DNA of 64,000 nucleotides, taken from assembly GCA_003023565.1 (NCBI GenBank), contig PXSA01000002.1:111834-175833 (forward strand), given 5' to 3'. Positions within the stretch are counted from its first letter, which is position 1. The number at the start of each line of letters is the position of its first letter. The position numbers and the translations under genes are program-made. Source of the DNA: Halobacteriales archaeon QS_9_68_17. GTDB lineage: Archaea > Halobacteriota > Halobacteria > Halobacteriales > Natronoarchaeaceae. Under the pieces are notes generated by a model. That model saw nothing but the letters and a program-made list of their open reading frames with translations. It did no database searches and had not been told where the DNA came from. Below, piece by piece: positions 16,062-35,064 of this stretch.

Positions 16062-17204
16062 TTACAGTCCGAGTTCTCGACCGATGACGAGGTGCTGGAT
16101 CTCGCTCGTGCCCTCGCCGATCTCCATGAGCTTCGCGTCGCGGTAGAACCGTTGTGGGGCGAAGTCGGTGGTGTAGCCGTAGCCCCCAAGGGTCTGGACG
16201 GCTTCCTCGGCGACCTCGCGGGAGGCCTCGCTGGCGTCGAGTTTGGCGAGCGCGCTCGCCTTCGTGACCGGTTCGCCCTGGTCGTACTCCCAGGCGGCCT
16301 TGTGGGTGAGCAGCCGGGCGCGCTCGGTCTTGCGCTCCATCTCGACGACCTTGTCGCGGACGGCGTCGAACTCGCTGATGGGCTGGCCGAACTGCTCGCG
16401 CTCCGTCGAGTACTCCTTGGCGGCCTCGTACGCGCCCTGTGCGAGACCGACCGACAGCGCGGCGATGGAGATGCGCCCGCCGTCCAGCGTCTTCTTGGTC
16501 TGGTTCCAGCCGTCGCCCTCCTCGCCGAGCAGGCGGTCCTCGGGGACGCGGACGTCGTCGAGCTGGATCTCGCAGGTCGGCGAGGCGTTCAGCCCCATCT
16601 TGTCCCAGACCGTCGTCACCTCGAAGCCGTCGTCCTCGCGAGGGTCGACGATGAACGTCGAGATGCCGTCGTAGCCCGCGTCGGGGTCCGTGACGGCCTT
16701 GACGAGGACGCTCCCGGCCTCGCTCGCGTTCGTGATGAACTGCTTCGTGCCGTCGAGGACGTACTCGTCGCCGTCCCTGACCGCCCGCGTGTTCATGTCG
16801 CTCGCGTCGCTCCCGCTCTCGGGTTCCGTGAGCGCCCACCCGCCGACGTACTCGCCCTCCGCCAGCGGTCGGAGCCAGCGCTCCTTCTGCTCCGCCGTGC
16901 CGAACAGTTCGATCGGCTTCGCCGCGAGGCTGACGTGGGCCGCGAACGAGAGACCGACGGAGCCGGAGACGCGCCCCAGTTCCTCCGTGACGAGCGCGTA
17001 CATGAGTTGATCGCCGCCGAGACCGCCGTACTCCTCGGCGACGGGGACGCCCATCATGTCGAGGCCTGCCAGCTGGTCGAATATCTCCCGCGGGAACCGG
17101 TGTTCGTCCTCGATCTCCTGTGCGATCGGAGCGATCTCCTCCTCGCAGAACTCCCGGACGCTGTCCCGGATCATCCGGTGTTCGTCGGACAGAGTGAACT
17201 CCAT
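16062..17204 (-). CDS. Acyl-CoA dehydrogenase
   Basis: 380 residues, the standard length. Typical family text includes EEYGGLGGDQL, GGWALTEPESGSDAS (FAD-binding), KQFITNASEAG, and ISTFIVD. The catalytic-base region near the C-terminus is QTLGGYGYTTDF followed by FYRDAKLMEIGEGTSEIQ. It catalyses alpha,beta-dehydrogenation of an acyl-CoA with electrons passed to ETF. The ATG at 17204 has an AT-rich TATA (TTTTTATC on the minus strand, 17226-17235) 22-31 nt upstream, which supports this start over the earlier in-frame ATG. A second paralog lies at 46099. Substrate chain length is not evident. Confidence 0.93.
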   Translation of the reverse strand: MEFTLSDEHRMIRDSVREFCEEEIAPIAQEIEDEHRFPREIFDQLAGLDMMGVPVAEEYGGLGGDQLMYALVTEELGRVSGSVGLSFAAHVSLAAKPIELFGTAEQKERWLRPLAEGEYVGGWALTEPESGSDASDMNTRAVRDGDEYVLDGTKQFITNASEAGSVLVKAVTDPDAGYDGISTFIVDPREDDGFEVTTVWDKMGLNASPTCEIQLDDVRVPEDRLLGEEGDGWNQTKKTLDGGRISIAALSVGLAQGAYEAAKEYSTEREQFGQPISEFDAVRDKVVEMERKTERARLLTHKAAWEYDQGEPVTKASALAKLDASEASREVAEEAVQTLGGYGYTTDFAPQRFYRDAKLMEIGEGTSEIQHLVIGRELGL

Positions 17205-17302
17205 ACGCAATACTTGCGAACCGAAGATAAAAACATGGGAGGTCCTCATCGCCGCCGTGTACCGGTGAGCGGGCGGCTACTGATCCGTCGGTTCGTCTAT
17301 TG

Positions 17303-17335
17303 TTGCATTTATAACTGAACTCCAGAAATTTTATC
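17303..17335 (+). promoter_or_regulatory. Promoter region of the secreted nuclease gene
   Basis: Two AT-rich boxes, CATTTATAAC (about 17304-17313) and AATTTTATCC (about 17326-17335), precede the GTG at 17360. The second lies 25-34 nt upstream, the expected TATA position for a leaderless transcript, and supports that start. Confidence 0.5.
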
Positions 17336-17359
17336 CAACCGAAGGCTGTTCCTCCGCCC

Positions 17360-19555
17360 GTGCGACGACGTAACTTCATCGCCGCGCTGGCGACGACGGC
17401 CGTCGGTGCCAGTGCCGGGACACGACGCGGTACCGCCGCCGCGCGCTCGCTCGCGCAGGCGTCGACGATAGACGCGTTGTCGTTTTACTCGACCGCGAGC
17501 CTCCTCGCGGCCGACGAAACGCCGCTTTCCGACGACGAGGTAATCGCCGTGTGGGCCGAGTCGTCGGCGTACACCGTCGACGAGGACGGGAACGGCGACG
17601 CCGTCGACTACCCCGACGACGTGGCTATCCCGCTCGTAGCGGTCGACGGCGACGCCGACGTCGTCGGCTACGGCGCTCCCCTCGCCAACGACGAGGCGGA
17701 CTTCGACGCCGGCAACGAGGAGTTCGTCCTCAACCTGTGGGACGAACACGTCGACGGGGACCGCGTCGTCTGGGACGAGAGCCACGACCAGTTCTACGAC
17801 CTCTCGGAGTACGACGTGTTCGCGGATTACGCCGCCGAGAACGGGTACACGGTCGAGGGAACCGACTCGCTGACCGACTCGCTGTCCGACGCCGACGGCG
17901 TCGTCGTCACCTCGCCCAGTCGCGCCTTCACCGACGAGGAGGCCGCGGCACTGCGGTCGTTCGTCGACGACGGCGGCGCGCTCTTTCTCGTCGACCAGTC
18001 CGACTTCCGGGACTTCGACGAGACGGCCAACCTGAACGCCCTCGCGGCCTCGCTCGACCTCGACTTCCGGTTCAACGACGACCAGGTGATGGACGACGAG
18101 TCGAACGCCGGGTCGGAGTTCAACCCCGTCACGAGCGATTTCAACGACGCGTTCCCGTACTTCGAGGACCGCGACGGACTGGGCTTCGAGATCGACCCGA
18201 CCGAGACGTACGAGGTGGACGTGACGGAGGTCGCCGACGGCGACACCGTCACCGTGGAGTTCGAGGACGGGAACCAGGAGAGCGTCCGCGTGCTCGGCGT
18301 CGACACCCCCGAGTCGGCGGGCAACGCCCGGTTCGAGCGCCTCGAGGAGTGGGAGGGGATCGAGGACCTGGAGTACTTACAGGAGTGGGCCGCCGAGGCG
18401 ACGGCCTTCGCCGAGGGGGAGTTGCTCGGTGAGACCGTCACGGTCTCGTTCGACGAGAACGAGGGCGTCCGGGACGCGTTCGACCGGGTGCTCGCGTACA
18501 TCGATTACGACGCCTCGGGCGACGGGAGCAGGGACACGACGTACAACCGGGAACTCATCGCCCGCGGTCTCGCCCGCGTGTACGGCTCCGGGTTCTCCCG
18601 TCACGACGAGTTCTGGGCCGTCGAGGCGGCGGCGCGAGCGGACGGCGTCGGCCTCTGGGCCGAGAGCGACCCGGAGAACAGCGACCCGATCCGGAACCGC
18701 GACGTCGACGACCTGTTCGTCCCAGACCCGGTGACGATCACGACGAGCGACCGTCACATCACGCCGAACCGGGTCCCCGTCTTCGCGGAGGACACCGCCG
18801 AGGGCGCGACCGCGGTGACGAACGGCCGGATCCCGCTCGCGGCCGTCGACGAGGACGCCCGCGTCGGCCTCGTTGCCGGCCCCCTCGTCGACGAGTCCTA
18901 CGAGGCCGACGAGGGCTACCCGGTCGAGACGTCGGGGTACGAGAACTTCGTCTTCCTCACGAACCTGGTCGACGCGCTGGCCGACCGGACCGACGACGAG
19001 GTGCTGATCGAGGGCGGGCACGGCCAGTTCGCCGCGGACTACGCCCTCTCGAACGAGGACGCCGCCTACTACCAGCGCTATCTGGAGGGCGTCGGCATCG
19101 GCTTCGAGCAGGTGAACGAGGTCACCGGCGACCGCCTCGACGACGCCCGCGCTGTCGTGGTCACCACGCCCGCGGCGGCGTTCGACGCGGCGACCGTCGA
19201 CGAACTGCGGTCGTTCGCCGCCGACGGCGGCGCGGTCCTCCTGCTGGGCAGTTCCGCCGCACCGACCGCCGCCCGCGAGAACCTGAACGCCCTGGCCGAC
19301 GGTCTCGGCACGGACCTCCGCGTCGGCGGGAGCGGCGTCACCGACCCGTCGTCGAACGTGAACGACGACCCCTCGGTGCCCGTCACGACCGCGTTCAACC
19401 GCCGGTTCAAACTGTTCTCGGCGTACGACGGGGCCGACGAGTCGCCGGACCGGGGGCGTGGAAACGGCCGCGGTAACGGTCGTGGACGAGGGCGCGGAAA
19501 CGGCCGCGGTCGGGGGCGAAACGACGGCCGCGGACGCGGTCGGAACGGTATCTGA
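17360..19555 (+). CDS. Tat-exported thermonuclease (SNase) domain between two DUF4350-like domains, with Arg/Gly tail
   Basis: 731 residues, GTG start. The Tat signal is MRRRNFIAALATTAVGAS. Residues about 50-280 and 465-690 are two related copies of a DUF4350/GATase-like domain: FADYAAENGYTVEG versus YQRYLEGVGIGFEQ, then NLNALAASLDLD versus NLNALADGLGTD. Between them (about 283-437) is a staphylococcal-nuclease domain. It starts VADGDTVTV and keeps the catalytic residues: Arg and Glu in VRVLGVDTPES, and the second Arg in FDRVLAYID. The last 35 or so residues are a run of RG/NG repeats, strongly basic in an otherwise acidic protein. Likely role: extracellular nucleic-acid cleavage, with the tail binding the polymer. 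Both the fusion and the tail are unusual. Confidence 0.88.
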   Translation: MRRRNFIAALATTAVGASAGTRRGTAAARSLAQASTIDALSFYSTASLLAADETPLSDDEVIAVWAESSAYTVDEDGNGDAVDYPDDVAIPLVAVDGDADVVGYGAPLANDEADFDAGNEEFVLNLWDEHVDGDRVVWDESHDQFYDLSEYDVFADYAAENGYTVEGTDSLTDSLSDADGVVVTSPSRAFTDEEAAALRSFVDDGGALFLVDQSDFRDFDETANLNALAASLDLDFRFNDDQVMDDESNAGSEFNPVTSDFNDAFPYFEDRDGLGFEIDPTETYEVDVTEVADGDTVTVEFEDGNQESVRVLGVDTPESAGNARFERLEEWEGIEDLEYLQEWAAEATAFAEGELLGETVTVSFDENEGVRDAFDRVLAYIDYDASGDGSRDTTYNRELIARGLARVYGSGFSRHDEFWAVEAAARADGVGLWAESDPENSDPIRNRDVDDLFVPDPVTITTSDRHITPNRVPVFAEDTAEGATAVTNGRIPLAAVDEDARVGLVAGPLVDESYEADEGYPVETSGYENFVFLTNLVDALADRTDDEVLIEGGHGQFAADYALSNEDAAYYQRYLEGVGIGFEQVNEVTGDRLDDARAVVVTTPAAAFDAATVDELRSFAADGGAVLLLGSSAAPTAARENLNALADGLGTDLRVGGSGVTDPSSNVNDDPSVPVTTAFNRRFKLFSAYDGADESPDRGRGNGRGNGRGRGRGNGRGRGRNDGRGRGRNGI

Positions 19556-19639
19556 CGCCACGGAAACCCCCCGAGAAGACGTTTCGGTCCCCGGCCGCCC
19601 GCCAAGGCATTTATGCCCTTACGTCGTCCTCCAACCGAT

Positions 19640-20437
19640 ATGGAAGTGCGCGACCTGGTTCGGGGCACCGTCGACTGGAGCGACATGGAGGCGGTCGCGC
19701 GGGAACTCGCCGACCGAACCGGTCGCGACGCGGTCAGGGTGACGTTTCTGGAGGCGGACAACTGGCTCTCGACGCCCTGCGTCGTCGACGAGGAGTGGTT
19801 CGTGAAGGTCATCTCGCCGCAGAACTCGCTCGTCCACGCGCTGTTTACCACCGGCCGCAACCTCGGCGCGGTCACGAGCGGTCGCGGGGGCTTTTTCGAC
19901 CACGTCGGCAGCCCCGTCGAGATGGCCGAGCGAGAACTCGACGCCACCGAACGGATGCGCGAGATCGGCGTGAACGCCCCCGAACCGGTCGAGGCGTTCG
20001 AAGTCGACGGCCTCGGCGTCCTCGTCCTGGAGTTTCTGGATGACTTCCGGACGTTCGAGGACCTCGACACCGAGGAGACGCGTGACCTCGCGCCGGACCT
20101 CTTCGCGAACCTCCGAAAACTCCACGACGACGGCCTGGCACACGGCGACCTGCGCGGCGAGAACGTCCTCGTCAGGGGCGGCGAGGTGTTTTTCATCGAC
20201 GCGACGAGCGTCCGCGAGTCGGGGCTCGCCGACGCGCGCGCATACGACCTCGCCTGCGCGCTGGCGACGCTCGAACCCGACCTCGGGTCGGCCACCGTCG
20301 TCGCCCTCGCGCGGAGCGCGTACTCGCTCGACGGACTCCTCGACGCGCTGGAGTTCCTCGATTTCGTCAACGTCCGCCCCGATCACGACTTCGACGCCGA
20401 GCGCCTCAAAGGCGAGATAGAGAAGGTCGCCGCGTGA
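19640..20437 (+). CDS. RIO1/Bud32-like serine kinase or kinase-like protein
   Basis: 265 residues. A winged N-terminal part (about 1-30) is followed by a kinase fold. The P-loop region is divergent, the lysine is in EEWFVKVISP, and the hinge is VLVLEFLDD. The catalytic loop is HGDLRGENVLV, with the metal-binding Asp in VFFIDATSV. The combination fits archaeal RIO-type atypical kinases, which act in ribosome maturation or protein phosphorylation. The ATG at 19640 is preceded by CATTTATGCC (19608-19617), about 27 nt upstream, fitting a leaderless start. The longer frame from 19613 lacks that support. Confidence 0.82.
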   Translation: MEVRDLVRGTVDWSDMEAVARELADRTGRDAVRVTFLEADNWLSTPCVVDEEWFVKVISPQNSLVHALFTTGRNLGAVTSGRGGFFDHVGSPVEMAERELDATERMREIGVNAPEPVEAFEVDGLGVLVLEFLDDFRTFEDLDTEETRDLAPDLFANLRKLHDDGLAHGDLRGENVLVRGGEVFFIDATSVRESGLADARAYDLACALATLEPDLGSATVVALARSAYSLDGLLDALEFLDFVNVRPDHDFDAERLKGEIEKVAA

Positions 20438-31090: not shown

Positions 31091-31196
31091 CCCGTGAGTA
31101 GTCGTAGTTATCAACTCCAGAGGGGAGACACGACGCGAACGACGCGAGCGCCGTCGACAGGGCGGCGTGGAGCGCTTCACCCTACCGGAAACGACC

Positions 31197-33032
31197 ATGA
31201 GGACAACAGACCAGGCCGACGACGACCGGGCGGGACGTGTGGAGCAGGAAACGACGCGTGAGGGCGGGGGATCGACCGCGTTCGGCGGTGAGTCCCGCGC
31301 TCAGTCGTCGGTCATCGCGGTGGTGCTTCTGGTCGGGGTGACGGTCGCCGGGGCGACCGCGGTCCTCGTGGTCGGGTCGGACGCGTTGTCGGACACGCAA
31401 CGCGACGCGAACGTGGACAGCGCGGAGAACGCGCTCTCCCAGATCGACGCGAAGGCGAGTCGCGTCGCGTCGGGGACGAACAACACCGAGGTGCTCACGG
31501 TCGCCGACTCCGGCGACGGGGAAACCCGCGTCGAACCGAACGCCGGGAACATCAACGTCACGATGGAGAACGAGACGACCGGCGACGTACAGCAGGTCTT
31601 GCTCGACGAGTCACTCGGTCGGGTCGTCTACGAGGTTGACGGCGAGGAGATCGCGTTCCAGGGCGGCGGGGTCTGGCGCAACACGGGCGACGGGAGTCGG
31701 ATGGTTTCCCGTCCCGACGTCCACTACCGCGGGGCCGGCCAGGAATCCCCGACCGCGACCGTTCCGCTGACGGTGATAAAGGGGGAAAGCTCCTCCGGGG
31801 ACTCGCTTACGATCTCCGACGACGGCACCGAACTCCGGTTCCCGGTCCGGAACACCAACCGGACGAACCCGATTACCGAGGGTCGGATCAACATGACGGT
31901 CCGGAGCGAGTACTACCTCGCTTGGGGCGATTACTTGGAGCAGTTGACGGGCGGCGTCGCCACATACGACCACGACGATAACGAGGTCAGCATCGTTCTC
32001 GTCTCCCCGCGCGACCGCGAGAACATCCAGCAGGGGCTGTTCCAGACCGGGACGGAAACCGACCTCGTGGTCAGCGGATCCGGGGACGCGTCGACCGTCG
32101 ATAGCTACAACTCCTCGGTCGGGCCGTACCACGTCCAGAACTCCTCGAACGGGTCGATTCGGACCGCGGGAGACATCCTGATATCGAGCAACGGGGAGGT
32201 GTACGGCGACCTCATCGGCGGCGGCGAGGTCACGGTCAAGGCGTCCTCCGCGACGGTGACCGGAAACGTCTCGTACGACAGGCGGGGGAGCCCGTTCAAA
32301 GAGAGCGTGGTACAGGGATGGGTGGCGGACAACGCGTCGGTCAACAGCACGCCACCCATCCGTGCGTACGTGAAAAGTCGGGTCGATGCCTTCAGCAACT
32401 CGTCGGCCAACGACAACGACGAGGTCTCGGCGATCAGTAGCGACAACCTGGATTTCGCGTCCAACGGTAACTCCATCACGCTCCCCAGCGAGTCCGGGAC
32501 CACGCGACAGTACTACATCGACGGGGACCTGGCGATGACCGACGACCAGAACCTCACGTTCGACACCTCGAACGGGGACGTCTTCGTCGCGGTCGAGAAC
32601 TCGATCACGATGGACACGGAGGCGAACATCAGCGTCGAGGGGGAGAACTCGGTGCGGTTCTTCATCCTCGACGACTTCACGATGGACGGACAGTCGAGCG
32701 TCCACGTTCCGGAAGACGACGCGACGCGACTTTGGGTGTACGGAACGCCCGAGACCGACGTCACTTTCGACGGGAACGGGAAGGGTAACAGCCCCGTGTT
32801 CGTCGGTGCCGTGTACGCTCCGTCGACCGGAGACGGGACCGGTGGCATCTCGATCGACAACTACGCGGAGATATACGGCGGGATCGTCGGCGGGGAAACC
32901 GACATCAGTCAGGGGTCCGTCCACTTCGACCACGCCCTGCAGAACGTGGACCCGCTCCCGACCGACGAGACGATCCCCCGCGTCACTCATCTCCACCTGA
33001 GCATCAACCGCGTCGAGATAGCCGCCGACTGA
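31197..33032 (+). CDS. Prepilin-like surface protein with bactofilin/DUF7305-type C-terminus, copy 1
   Basis: 611 residues from the ATG at 31197. A polar N-terminus of about 35 residues leads to RAQSSVIAVVLLVGVTVAG, a class III-type signal and assembly helix. Next come a DUF7289-like stretch (AENALSQIDAKASRV; DESLGRVVYEV; FQGGGVWR) and EYYLAWGDYL. The C-terminal third is a beta-helix-like region with repeated short turns (SIRTAGDILISSNGEVYGDL; NITVEGENSVRFF; VFVGAVYAPST; YGGIVGG). It ends VTHLHLSINRVEIAAD. A surface or pilus-associated role is inferred. The tandem copy at 33247 is closely related. Confidence 0.78.
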   Translation: MRTTDQADDDRAGRVEQETTREGGGSTAFGGESRAQSSVIAVVLLVGVTVAGATAVLVVGSDALSDTQRDANVDSAENALSQIDAKASRVASGTNNTEVLTVADSGDGETRVEPNAGNINVTMENETTGDVQQVLLDESLGRVVYEVDGEEIAFQGGGVWRNTGDGSRMVSRPDVHYRGAGQESPTATVPLTVIKGESSSGDSLTISDDGTELRFPVRNTNRTNPITEGRINMTVRSEYYLAWGDYLEQLTGGVATYDHDDNEVSIVLVSPRDRENIQQGLFQTGTETDLVVSGSGDASTVDSYNSSVGPYHVQNSSNGSIRTAGDILISSNGEVYGDLIGGGEVTVKASSATVTGNVSYDRRGSPFKESVVQGWVADNASVNSTPPIRAYVKSRVDAFSNSSANDNDEVSAISSDNLDFASNGNSITLPSESGTTRQYYIDGDLAMTDDQNLTFDTSNGDVFVAVENSITMDTEANISVEGENSVRFFILDDFTMDGQSSVHVPEDDATRLWVYGTPETDVTFDGNGKGNSPVFVGAVYAPSTGDGTGGISIDNYAEIYGGIVGGETDISQGSVHFDHALQNVDPLPTDETIPRVTHLHLSINRVEIAAD

Positions 33033-33160: not shown

Positions 33161-33246
33161 TGTAGTACCTCTCACCAATCGGTTTCCGATCATGAACGCC
33201 GAACCGACTATGGGCGGTCAACGACCGCGGTCCCGCTGGGGCAGTG

Positions 33247-35064
33247 ATGGATAGCCGTCGTACCGCCGACGAGCGCGGCCGGACCGGGCCGCGCTCCGTC
33301 CGCCCTGAGTACGGACGGGACCCCGGAGACAGCGGGTCGACGGGGACGCTGCGCGGGCAATCGTCGGTCCTCGCCGTTGCTTTCCTGGTCGGGTTGACGG
33401 TCACCGGAGCGACGGCGGTGTATCTCGTCGGTTCCTCGGCGCTGTCCGAGAGCCAGGAGCGAGCGGACCTCGACTCCGCGGAGAACGCTCTCGCTCAGGT
33501 CGACAGCAGCGCCGCCAGAGTCGCCGCCGGGACGAACAACACGGAGCGGATCCGCCTCAGCGACGCGACCGGCGGCGAGACGCGGGTCGAACCGGACGCC
33601 GGACGTATCAACGTCACGCTGGAGAACGACTCCACGGGAGCGGTCCGCGAGGTGATACTGGACGGGTCACTCGGCCGGATCGTTCACGACGTCAACGGCG
33701 AGGAAGTGGCGTTTCAGGGCGGCGGCGTATGGCGTCGCTCGGGGTCGGGGAGTCAGGTGGTGTCCAAGCCGGACATCCACTACAGCAACGACGGCCTCGA
33801 CCAGCCGACCGTGACGCTCCCGCTGACGCTCATCGAGGGGCCGAACACGACCGGGTCCGACCTCGAGATCACGGACGATGGAACGGAGATCCGATACCCG
33901 GTGCGCAGCGACGACGCGCTGTCGAACCCCGTGACGACGGACACCCGAATCAACATCACCATTCGGAGCGAGTACTACCGCGCGTGGGGGGACTACCTCC
34001 GGGGACTGGCGGAGGCGACCCCCGCCTACGACCACGACGAAAACGAGGTCACGGTCGCGCTCGTCAGGCCGTCCGAGAACGAACCGGTGTCGAACGCTTT
34101 GCTCCAGACGGGTCCTGGCGCTGCCCTCGAGTTCGACAGCAACGCGCACGCCGACAGCTACAACTCCTCGCAGGCACCCTACGCGTCCGCGAACGCGGAG
34201 AACGGCACTATCGTCACCGCCGGCGACCTCAAGATACAGAGCAACGGCGCGGTTCTCGGCGACATCGTCGCCGGCAACACCGTCGAGATCGACTCCGCGA
34301 ACACGCGCGTCACGGGCAACGTCTCGTACGGGGGCGCGGACGACACGGAGATACACCAGAACGCCGACATAGAGGGCTGGGTCAACGACAACGCTTCGGT
34401 CGAGGGGACGCCGTCGATCAAGGGGTACGTCGGCCACACCTTCGAGCGCCTCGAGAACGACACGGTCAACGATAACGACGCCGAGACGAACATCACCGGC
34501 GAATCGATCGACTTCGGCGGATCGGACACGGTCGTTCTGCACGGCGACTCCGACCGCCGAGAGTACTACATCGACGACGACCTCTCGCTGAGCGGTCACG
34601 AGACGCTGATCCTCGACACGACTGACGGGGAGATCAGCCTCGCGGTCGACGAGAGCATCGCGATGGACGGCCACGCCAACATCACCGTTCGAGGGGACAA
34701 CGCGGCGCGGGTCTTCGTCGATGACGACTTCGACATGGGCACCCAGTCGGAGACGTACGTTCCCGGGGACCGGTCCCCGCTGCTCTGGGTGTACGGGTCG
34801 TCCAACACCGACGTGGACTTCGACGGCAACGTCAGGTTCACCGGCGTCGTGTACGCGCCGAGCGGCGAGGGTATCAGCGTCGACAGCAACGCGGAGGTGT
34901 TCGGCGGCGTGGTCGGTCGCGGCGACGCGGACATCCAGAGCAACGCGCGACTGCACTACGACGAGGCGCTCTCCGGCGTGGCACCGGTCCCGGAAGACGA
35001 GGAGATCCCCCGTATCACGCATCTCCACCTGAGCGTCAACCGCGTCGAGATAACCGCCGACTGA
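33247..35064 (+). CDS. Prepilin-like surface protein with bactofilin/DUF7305-type C-terminus, copy 2
   Basis: 605 residues. It has the same architecture as copy 1: LRGQSSVLAVAFLVGLTVTG as signal/assembly helix, AENALAQVDSSAARVAAGTN, GSLGRIVHDVNGEEVAFQGG, and EYYRAWGDYLRGL. The C-terminal beta-rich region again has GDLKIQSNGAVLGDIVAGN, MDGHANITVRGDNAARVF and VVYAPSGEG, and ends ITHLHLSVNRVEITAD. The two copies align over their whole length with only small gaps, so this is an old tandem duplication with divergence. It may be an adhesin, a minor pilin or a surface polymer scaffold. Confidence 0.78.
   Translation: MDSRRTADERGRTGPRSVRPEYGRDPGDSGSTGTLRGQSSVLAVAFLVGLTVTGATAVYLVGSSALSESQERADLDSAENALAQVDSSAARVAAGTNNTERIRLSDATGGETRVEPDAGRINVTLENDSTGAVREVILDGSLGRIVHDVNGEEVAFQGGGVWRRSGSGSQVVSKPDIHYSNDGLDQPTVTLPLTLIEGPNTTGSDLEITDDGTEIRYPVRSDDALSNPVTTDTRINITIRSEYYRAWGDYLRGLAEATPAYDHDENEVTVALVRPSENEPVSNALLQTGPGAALEFDSNAHADSYNSSQAPYASANAENGTIVTAGDLKIQSNGAVLGDIVAGNTVEIDSANTRVTGNVSYGGADDTEIHQNADIEGWVNDNASVEGTPSIKGYVGHTFERLENDTVNDNDAETNITGESIDFGGSDTVVLHGDSDRREYYIDDDLSLSGHETLILDTTDGEISLAVDESIAMDGHANITVRGDNAARVFVDDDFDMGTQSETYVPGDRSPLLWVYGSSNTDVDFDGNVRFTGVVYAPSGEGISVDSNAEVFGGVVGRGDADIQSNARLHYDEALSGVAPVPEDEEIPRITHLHLSVNRVEITAD

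Follow-up and report, generated by a model that had tools for sequence, protein, structure and literature searches.

The gene at 17360-19555 on the forward strand of the window, as the whole analysed stretch of 64,000 nucleotides is called here, encodes, in our reading, a modular secreted nuclease of haloarchaea, and the GIFT domain nested within the nuclease of some relatives, together with the varying C-terminus, are the traits of this family most worth testing. The explanation that probably accounts best for the observations is that a secreted, Ca2+-dependent nuclease of the SNase type degrades extracellular nucleic acid and that a C-terminal module, here an RG tail, retains the enzyme or grips the DNA. 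The open reading frame is intact, with a GTG start and 731 codons that are free of internal stops, and its product comprises, in this order, a Tat-type signal, a DUF4350 half, an SNase domain, another DUF4350 half and a 35-residue tail of R, G, N and D. The features of the locus, with the basis of each assignment in brackets, are as follows.

17360..17464, forward strand: Tat-type signal region, residues 1-35, VRRRNFIAALATT... (twin arginine; sequence read by eye)
17474..18175, forward strand: N-terminal GIFT/DUF4350 domain, residues 39-272 (Pfam, homology to the C-terminal half, AF2)
18203..18667, forward strand: SNase domain, residues 282-436 (Pfam, AF2, Foldseek, catalytic residues)
18287..18289, forward strand: codon of R310, equivalent of SNase R35 (catalytic-residue comparison)
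18311..18313, forward strand: codon of E318, equivalent of SNase E43 (catalytic-residue comparison)
18344..18367, forward strand: EEWEGIED omega-loop block, residues 329-336 (alignment with S. aureus nuclease, in its loop preceding helix 1)
18485..18487, forward strand: codon of R376, equivalent of SNase R87 (catalytic-residue comparison)
18731..19417, forward strand: C-terminal GIFT/DUF4350 domain, residues 458-686 (IFT52_GIFT, 37% identity to the N-terminal half)
19448..19552, forward strand: basic RG/NG tail, residues 697-731 (sequence, composition, codon test)
19613-20437, forward strand: RIO/APH-like kinase, immediately 3' of the nuclease gene

The N-terminus of the protein, VRRRNFIAALATTAVGASAG, is by eye compatible with a Tat signal, as proposed in the first-pass annotation, and 91 of the 98 proteins in the family census described below carry an RR pair ahead of the first domain under a loose test. 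The whole protein has a net charge of -104 and contains not a single cysteine, and the lipobox that is a feature of Hvo_1477-type surface nucleases is absent from its sequence. As part of the joint explanation given above, the protein is probably exported through the Tat pathway and is predicted to reside at the cell surface or outside the cell. The same genome encodes a second, short SNase with a start that by eye resembles a lipobox (L002:1408-2004), so that the two nucleases may divide labour.

The SNase domain matches the Pfam family PF00565 over residues 309-434 (53.9 bits against a cut-off of 21) and can be aligned with the sequence of S. aureus nuclease. In the numbering of the latter, R35, E43 and R87 are the catalytic residues and D21, D40 and T41 the Ca2+ ligands; the window protein has R310, E318 and R376, and D295, D315 and T316, respectively, at these positions. 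The equivalents of D21, R35, D40, E43 and R87 are invariant in all 98 proteins compared, and that of T41 is kept in 91 of them. An AF2 model of residues 35-691 (10 sequences) has a pLDDT of 80.8 and a pTM of 0.51, so the relative placement of the domains in it is not trustworthy; within this model, the SNase domain matches S. aureus nuclease in Foldseek with E about 1e-10 and TM values mostly of 0.80-0.86 by target length. The best NCBIfam match to this region (residues 282-434) is EcnA (NF047969), at 103.7 bits, which is below the cut-off of 180. Judged from its sequence, the protein is a putative Ca2+-dependent SNase-type endonuclease with a complete active site. The earlier statement that the catalytic Arg/Glu/Arg is retained is thus borne out, and the concern that these residues are not positioned for catalysis did not materialise.

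Pfam places the SNase domain between two DUF4350 stretches, in agreement with the sandwich arrangement noted earlier. The profiles of DUF4350 (56.6 bits against a cut-off of 30.4; best stretch 153-263), IFT52_GIFT (39.1 against 27.2; best stretch in the C-terminal domain 585-650) and the GldG-type ABC_transp_aux (45.7 against 34.7) each match in two stretches, and those of GldG and OST48_N match the flanking domains weakly. The two halves are homologous to each other, with 75 of 202 positions identical between residues 35-280 and 456-692 (E=3e-17 in a single comparison); the relationship of the flanks that had been claimed earlier therefore stands. The AF2 model of the N-terminal half alone (12 sequences) has a pLDDT of 80.4 and a pTM of 0.84, and its only two Foldseek matches at E<=0.001 are both to the IMPa peptidase (best 2.4e-4). 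Further matches are to the N-domain of IFT52 (5fmr_C; probability 1.00, rmsd 1.9 over 86 columns, partial length, E 0.01), to S1P (8uw8; probability 1.00, but a weak E of 0.0098) and to peptidase E (best chain with a probability of 0.99-1.00 and E about 0.01, a level at which unrelated folds, e.g., CobU, rank alongside). These matches, of partial length, lend some support to a GIFT fold. Because the protein lacks cysteines, a GATase-like cysteine active site is absent. Sugar binding has been proposed for GIFT domains (PMC7226087). The GIFT domain of S1P packs against the protease, where it stabilises a residue of the oxyanion hole and may regulate access (PMC11231238), and archaeal DUF4350 proteins are linked to GldG and to the beta-galactosidase trimerisation domain (PMC5898192). 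For the nuclease, we infer that the GIFT domains would bind a surface glycan or protein and/or brace the catalytic domain.

At E<=1e-40, the core of this protein has matches in 76 of the 243 genomes sampled from the order, including five (G021, G035, G045, G060 and G067) in which the match is solely through a GIFT domain that stands alone. Of 294 genomes sampled across the phylum, among which the order of the window has an unstated share, 12 match at E<=1e-30, and every one of the 12 belongs to that order. The 121 loci yielded 115 distinct ORFs with a GIFT domain, and 98 of these, de-duplicated by identical last 200 residues, are complete with SNase plus a following GIFT domain and constitute the census; the remaining 17 were left out owing to a locus edge, a missing C-terminal part of SNase or the lack of a GIFT domain at the end, and some rows that appear truncated or frameshifted (L038 and L087) were kept. 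The order GIFT-SNase-GIFT, the presence of which in relatives had been proposed as a check, is found in 64 of the 98 proteins; in 15, the N-terminal GIFT domain is missing, 13 have several GIFT stretches ahead of an intact SNase, and in six a GIFT domain is nested within SNase, where these counts refer to HMM stretches, so that one domain may be split. Among plasmid records, 119 match the core at E<=1e-5, with at least 80% of the core covered in three; for the 20 of the 119 matches that are listed, coverage is 98% in three, 60-63% in six and 23-27%, i.e., the SNase part, in 11. The names of the plasmid members, among the matches listed, are 'thermonuclease family', 'lamin tail domain-containing' and 'PKD domain-containing' protein. 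Both kinds of domain, SNase and GIFT, have been described before, and members of the family are already annotated under such generic names, so that the designation of an undescribed system in the first-pass annotation was overstated: the core is that of a widespread haloarchaeal family. Some loci of one family group (L024-L028) encode proteins of about 260-275 amino acids with a stand-alone GIFT domain of the N-terminal type and without the nuclease. Three SNase-GIFT proteins (L045:4992-6287, which sits on a Haladaptatus plasmid, L094 and L111) start no more than 12 residues from SNase and lack a signal sequence; by sequence, these are possibly intracellular or mis-started.

In the six nested proteins (L034, L039, L040, L042, L097 and L106), SNase is interrupted after EEWEG, at an identical point in all of them, by an insert of 245-274 residues that includes the GIFT domain, after which SNase resumes with the catalytic residues kept. 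The insertion point maps between G333 and I334 of the window protein, which corresponds, in the alignment with S. aureus nuclease, to the loop that leads from E43 to helix 1. By analogy with the role proposed for the GIFT domain in the protease S1P, it is conceivable, if on balance unlikely, that the nested GIFT domain, which is near the catalytic Glu in sequence, gates or orients the substrate at the active site.

The region after the last GIFT domain is variable. In the 98 proteins, it is a lamin tail in 41, shorter than 20 residues in 17, a neutral or acidic low-complexity end in 12, a basic RG/KG tail in 12, including the window protein (the border between the basic and neutral classes is arbitrary, and L039, with a net charge of +2 over the extension, was classed as neutral), and of another kind in 16. 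The classes were assigned by our own composition rules and a lamin-tail HMM built from eight census proteins. Reading of the sequences suggests that the other ends include dockerin-like (L040, L042 and L097; the EF-hand match in L042 is below threshold, E 0.0015), PKD-like and hydrophobic (L014 and L082) ones. The window protein shows no match to the lamin tail (LTD) profile at E<=1. Expressed per 100 residues, the basic-tail ends have a median net charge of +14.0, as follows from the definition of the class, the lamin-tail ends one of -16.4 and the cores one of about -12 to -15. Seven genus groups, which belong to four family groups (with L034 of Halovenus counted in f4), have members with basic tails. 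On a quick ML tree of the C-terminal part of SNase and the last GIFT domain, the five end classes require at least 19 changes compared with a mean of 51.2 for shuffled labels, and the basic tails alone require four, three of which are forced by starred branches. All 12 basic tails fall into one unstarred group of 24 rows (SH-aLRT 88), so these tails could derive from one old acquisition followed by losses and replacements. Since 86 of the 98 proteins lack a basic tail, it is a module of particular lineages and not an element of the core mechanism. RG/KG dipeptides are clearly more frequent than in shuffled sequences in four of the 12 basic tails (L001, L003, L004 and L076; fractions 0.002 or less), and in the other eight are not above the shuffles (fractions 0.1 or more). 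In the basic tails of L051, L061, L070 and L074, the RG/KG part is preceded by a common GGPGxPGC motif, which contains a single cysteine and is perhaps a processing or attachment site.

The tail of the window protein (residues 697-731) consists of R, G, N and D, plus a single final I, with a net charge of +10 over the last 35 residues and +8 over the last 41. Each of the four CGN codons and each of the four GGN codons occurs in this region, and the longest exact DNA repeat, of 15 nt, is reached by a fraction of 0.44 of 300 simulations in which the tail peptide was back-coded with the gene's own codons. This codon diversity, along with a repeat no longer than expected by chance, indicates that the tail is not a chance DNA repeat. 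The genuine tail of about 35 residues that the first-pass annotation had described is thus confirmed, with the correction that, there being no RGG triplet in it, it is a repeat of RG dipeptides and not an RGG box. Two relatives from the same genus, L003 and L004, have in-frame tails of like kind but other lengths: L003 is 90% identical to the window protein and shares the RG/KG/NG make-up of its tail, with different letters and length, and L032 of Halostella pelagica, the same locus as L004, again has an in-frame RG/KG/NG tail of another length and other letters. In the three tailed copies of this genus, 45, 36 and 57 residues follow the last GIFT domain, and the basic RG/KG composition is retained; a fourth copy, L097, has the dockerin-like end in place of the tail. 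An origin by frameshift or repeat expansion was rejected on the basis of the codon test together with the in-frame tails of the relatives, and the suspicion that the tail is absent from all relatives proved unfounded, with basic tails in 12 of the 98 proteins. A genome-wide tag was considered and rejected: no similar tail was found elsewhere in the same genome, where the next matches have E 0.49 or worse (89% complete genome, low-complexity query).

In G002, from the same genus, the nested, dockerin-ended L097 occupies the site equivalent to 16062-20437 of the window, and its neighbours, an acyl-CoA dehydrogenase and a RIO-like kinase, are 93% and 79% identical, respectively, to those that are nearest to the nuclease gene in the window. 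On the tree, L097 groups with the nested L034, L040, L042 and L106 (starred, 96), separately from the group of the three RG-tailed copies of the genus (starred, 100). The shared site and the tree placement of L097 together are more easily reconciled with replacement of the whole gene at one site than with exchange of the tail only. The acyl-CoA dehydrogenase adjoins the nuclease gene in eight of the 121 loci, seven of them distinct (those of the window, L003, L004=L032, L097, L040, L042 and L071), and in three of the 15 loci for which the flanks extend over 5 kb (L032-L046). Because the flanks of most loci span no more than 1.5-2.5 kb, absence of the neighbour elsewhere is uninformative. The kinase is close to the nuclease gene in the loci of the window, L003, L004=L032, L097 and L071 (61% identical in the latter). 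Both genes are near the nuclease of L071, a lamin-tail form from another family group, and the dehydrogenase is near the nested, dockerin-like forms L040 and L042 of Haloarchaeobius. Conserved partner genes were considered, but we read the shared neighbours as a presumed old shared chromosomal site and not as a functional partnership. Elsewhere in the window, 31167-33032 and 33244-35064 on the forward strand are tandem paralogues, each with DUF7289 followed by DUF7305.

Under the explanation that we consider probable, the enzyme would cut DNA or RNA at high salt, and extracellular nucleic acid would be degraded mainly for nutrients (phosphate), perhaps also in the turnover of biofilm DNA. The C-terminal module, be it a lamin tail, a dockerin-like end, a hydrophobic segment or an RG tail, would tether the acidic enzyme to its substrate or to the cell; in this lineage, the disordered RG tail would do so by a grip on nucleic acid or on an acidic polymer of the surface, built up from many individually weak contacts of Arg. 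Salt at haloarchaeal concentrations screens charge, which counts against a charge-based grip. PMC4486849 states that the surface of halophile DNases is itself acidic, for which reason they require a further domain for DNA binding, that the secreted halophile DNases in the set of Alzbutas et al. have a C-terminal HhH or lamin-tail domain, that the HhH domain enables DNaseTA to function at up to 4 M NaCl, and that lamin tails are linked to DNA binding. Furthermore, fusion to an HhH domain is described as increasing the salt tolerance of DNaseI (PMC4777378), S. aureus nuclease itself as impaired by high salt (PMC11719836) and deletion of Hvo_1477 as reducing growth of Haloferax volcanii on DNA (PMC3929857). 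Given that its position is that of the lamin tail in relatives, we infer, by analogy, that the RG tail is an alternative, disordered module for retention or grip. The first-pass proposal that the tail holds DNA or RNA is accordingly plausible as far as this published precedent and the 41 lamin tails go, and DNA binding by the tail itself stays a conjecture by analogy. That 17 proteins (one of which, L038, is apparently truncated) continue for fewer than 20 residues beyond their last GIFT domain suggests that the core does not need the module; the acidity of the lamin-tail ends means that a function shared with the basic tail does not follow; and the 12 relatives with neutral or acidic low-complexity tails indicate that basicity may be incidental.

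Attachment of the enzyme to the cell envelope (the acidic S-layer, glycans or the membrane), with the tail as an attachment or sorting element instead of a nucleic-acid grip, would explain the same facts nearly as well, and we hold it to be possible, if doubtful. Dockerin-like (L040, L042 and L097) and hydrophobic (L014 and L082) ends occupy the place of the tail, and lamin tails, too, have been taken as membrane attachment instead (PMC5118699). An unrelated protein, L044:2218-3327 (reverse strand), of 369 amino acids, located 1.7 kb from a family member and without a Pfam or NCBIfam match at E<=0.001, has a start that by eye is Tat-like and a similar, long, basic tail rich in K, R, G and N. 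However, this is the only credible example outside the family in a rough call of 413 genes around the loci plus the window, where the tail scan gave 18 hits, of which 15 were family members and two apparently spurious frames, and the search of the window's own genome for such tails, mentioned above, also speaks against this reading. The drift of tail length and letters among close relatives and the many family members with other low-complexity ends or none are what would be expected if the tail were a weakly constrained end without specific function. Against this stand the peptide repeat, which was kept while its codons diversified, the retained basic composition in the three tailed copies of the genus and the spread of basic tails over several genus and family groups, and such a functionless tail seems unlikely. 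Defence against incoming DNA, i.e., restriction of phage or plasmid DNA at the surface, as suggested earlier, is very improbable: the PADLOC candidate model C3a212 'SNc+LTD' matches the protein, but the match is confined to the shared SNase domain, a scan of viral contigs with two peptide patterns found no relative, and the nearest neighbours are the dehydrogenase and the kinase. A defence system or mobile-element cargo was accordingly set aside as having little support.

Beyond the preferred explanation of a secreted, retained nuclease, it is conceivable, albeit on balance unlikely, that the GIFT domains are working parts of the nuclease instead of passive anchors and that lamin tails and disordered RG tails are exchangeable grips, which would make the protein a modular, salt-proof nuclease. 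If so, a disordered Arg-Gly tail would replace a folded DNA-binding domain in a very acidic secreted protein. It is a genuine question how nucleases with strongly acidic, halophilic surfaces bind DNA in near-saturated salt, and the tested answer that was found is the HhH fusion in DNaseTA. The family constitutes a natural series, in which one core is followed by a folded module, by a tail that is either basic or neutral, or by nothing, and in which rescue of high-salt activity by the C-terminal module can be tested directly, and the DUF4350/GIFT domains gain a link to an easily assayed enzyme.

A literature search, with most subscription journals outside its coverage, found no paper in which DUF4350 is coupled with a nuclease, nothing relevant on RG-tailed secreted haloarchaeal proteins and no relevant paper on EcnA. 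The flanks of the window protein match DUF4350, IFT52_GIFT and ABC_transp_aux above the cut-off and in this respect resemble the known GIFT domains (GldG, IFT52, OST48/Wbp1 and S1P) and arCOG01314/DUF4350; whereas in these systems no nuclease is coupled to the domain in the parts of the literature covered, the GIFT domains of the window protein flank SNase. EcnA, a calcium-activated nuclease, is similar to the SNase domain by best NCBIfam match but is a single-domain model of 151 positions, below the cut-off of which the window protein falls. Hvo_1477, the closest protein that has been studied, is, like the window protein, a secreted haloarchaeal SNase with an extra C-terminal module and is implicated in growth on extracellular DNA; it is a 327-aa lipoprotein with a lipobox and a lamin-tail superfamily match, and DUF4350 is not mentioned in PMC3929857, whereas the window protein is of the Tat type, lacks a lamin tail and combines GIFT-SNase-GIFT with an RG tail. 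Another secreted halophile nuclease with an added C-terminal module is DNaseTA of Thioalkalivibrio sp. K90mix (PMC4486849), although it belongs to a separate nuclease family, DNaseI, and has an HhH domain; it can serve as a model for how the tail may work.
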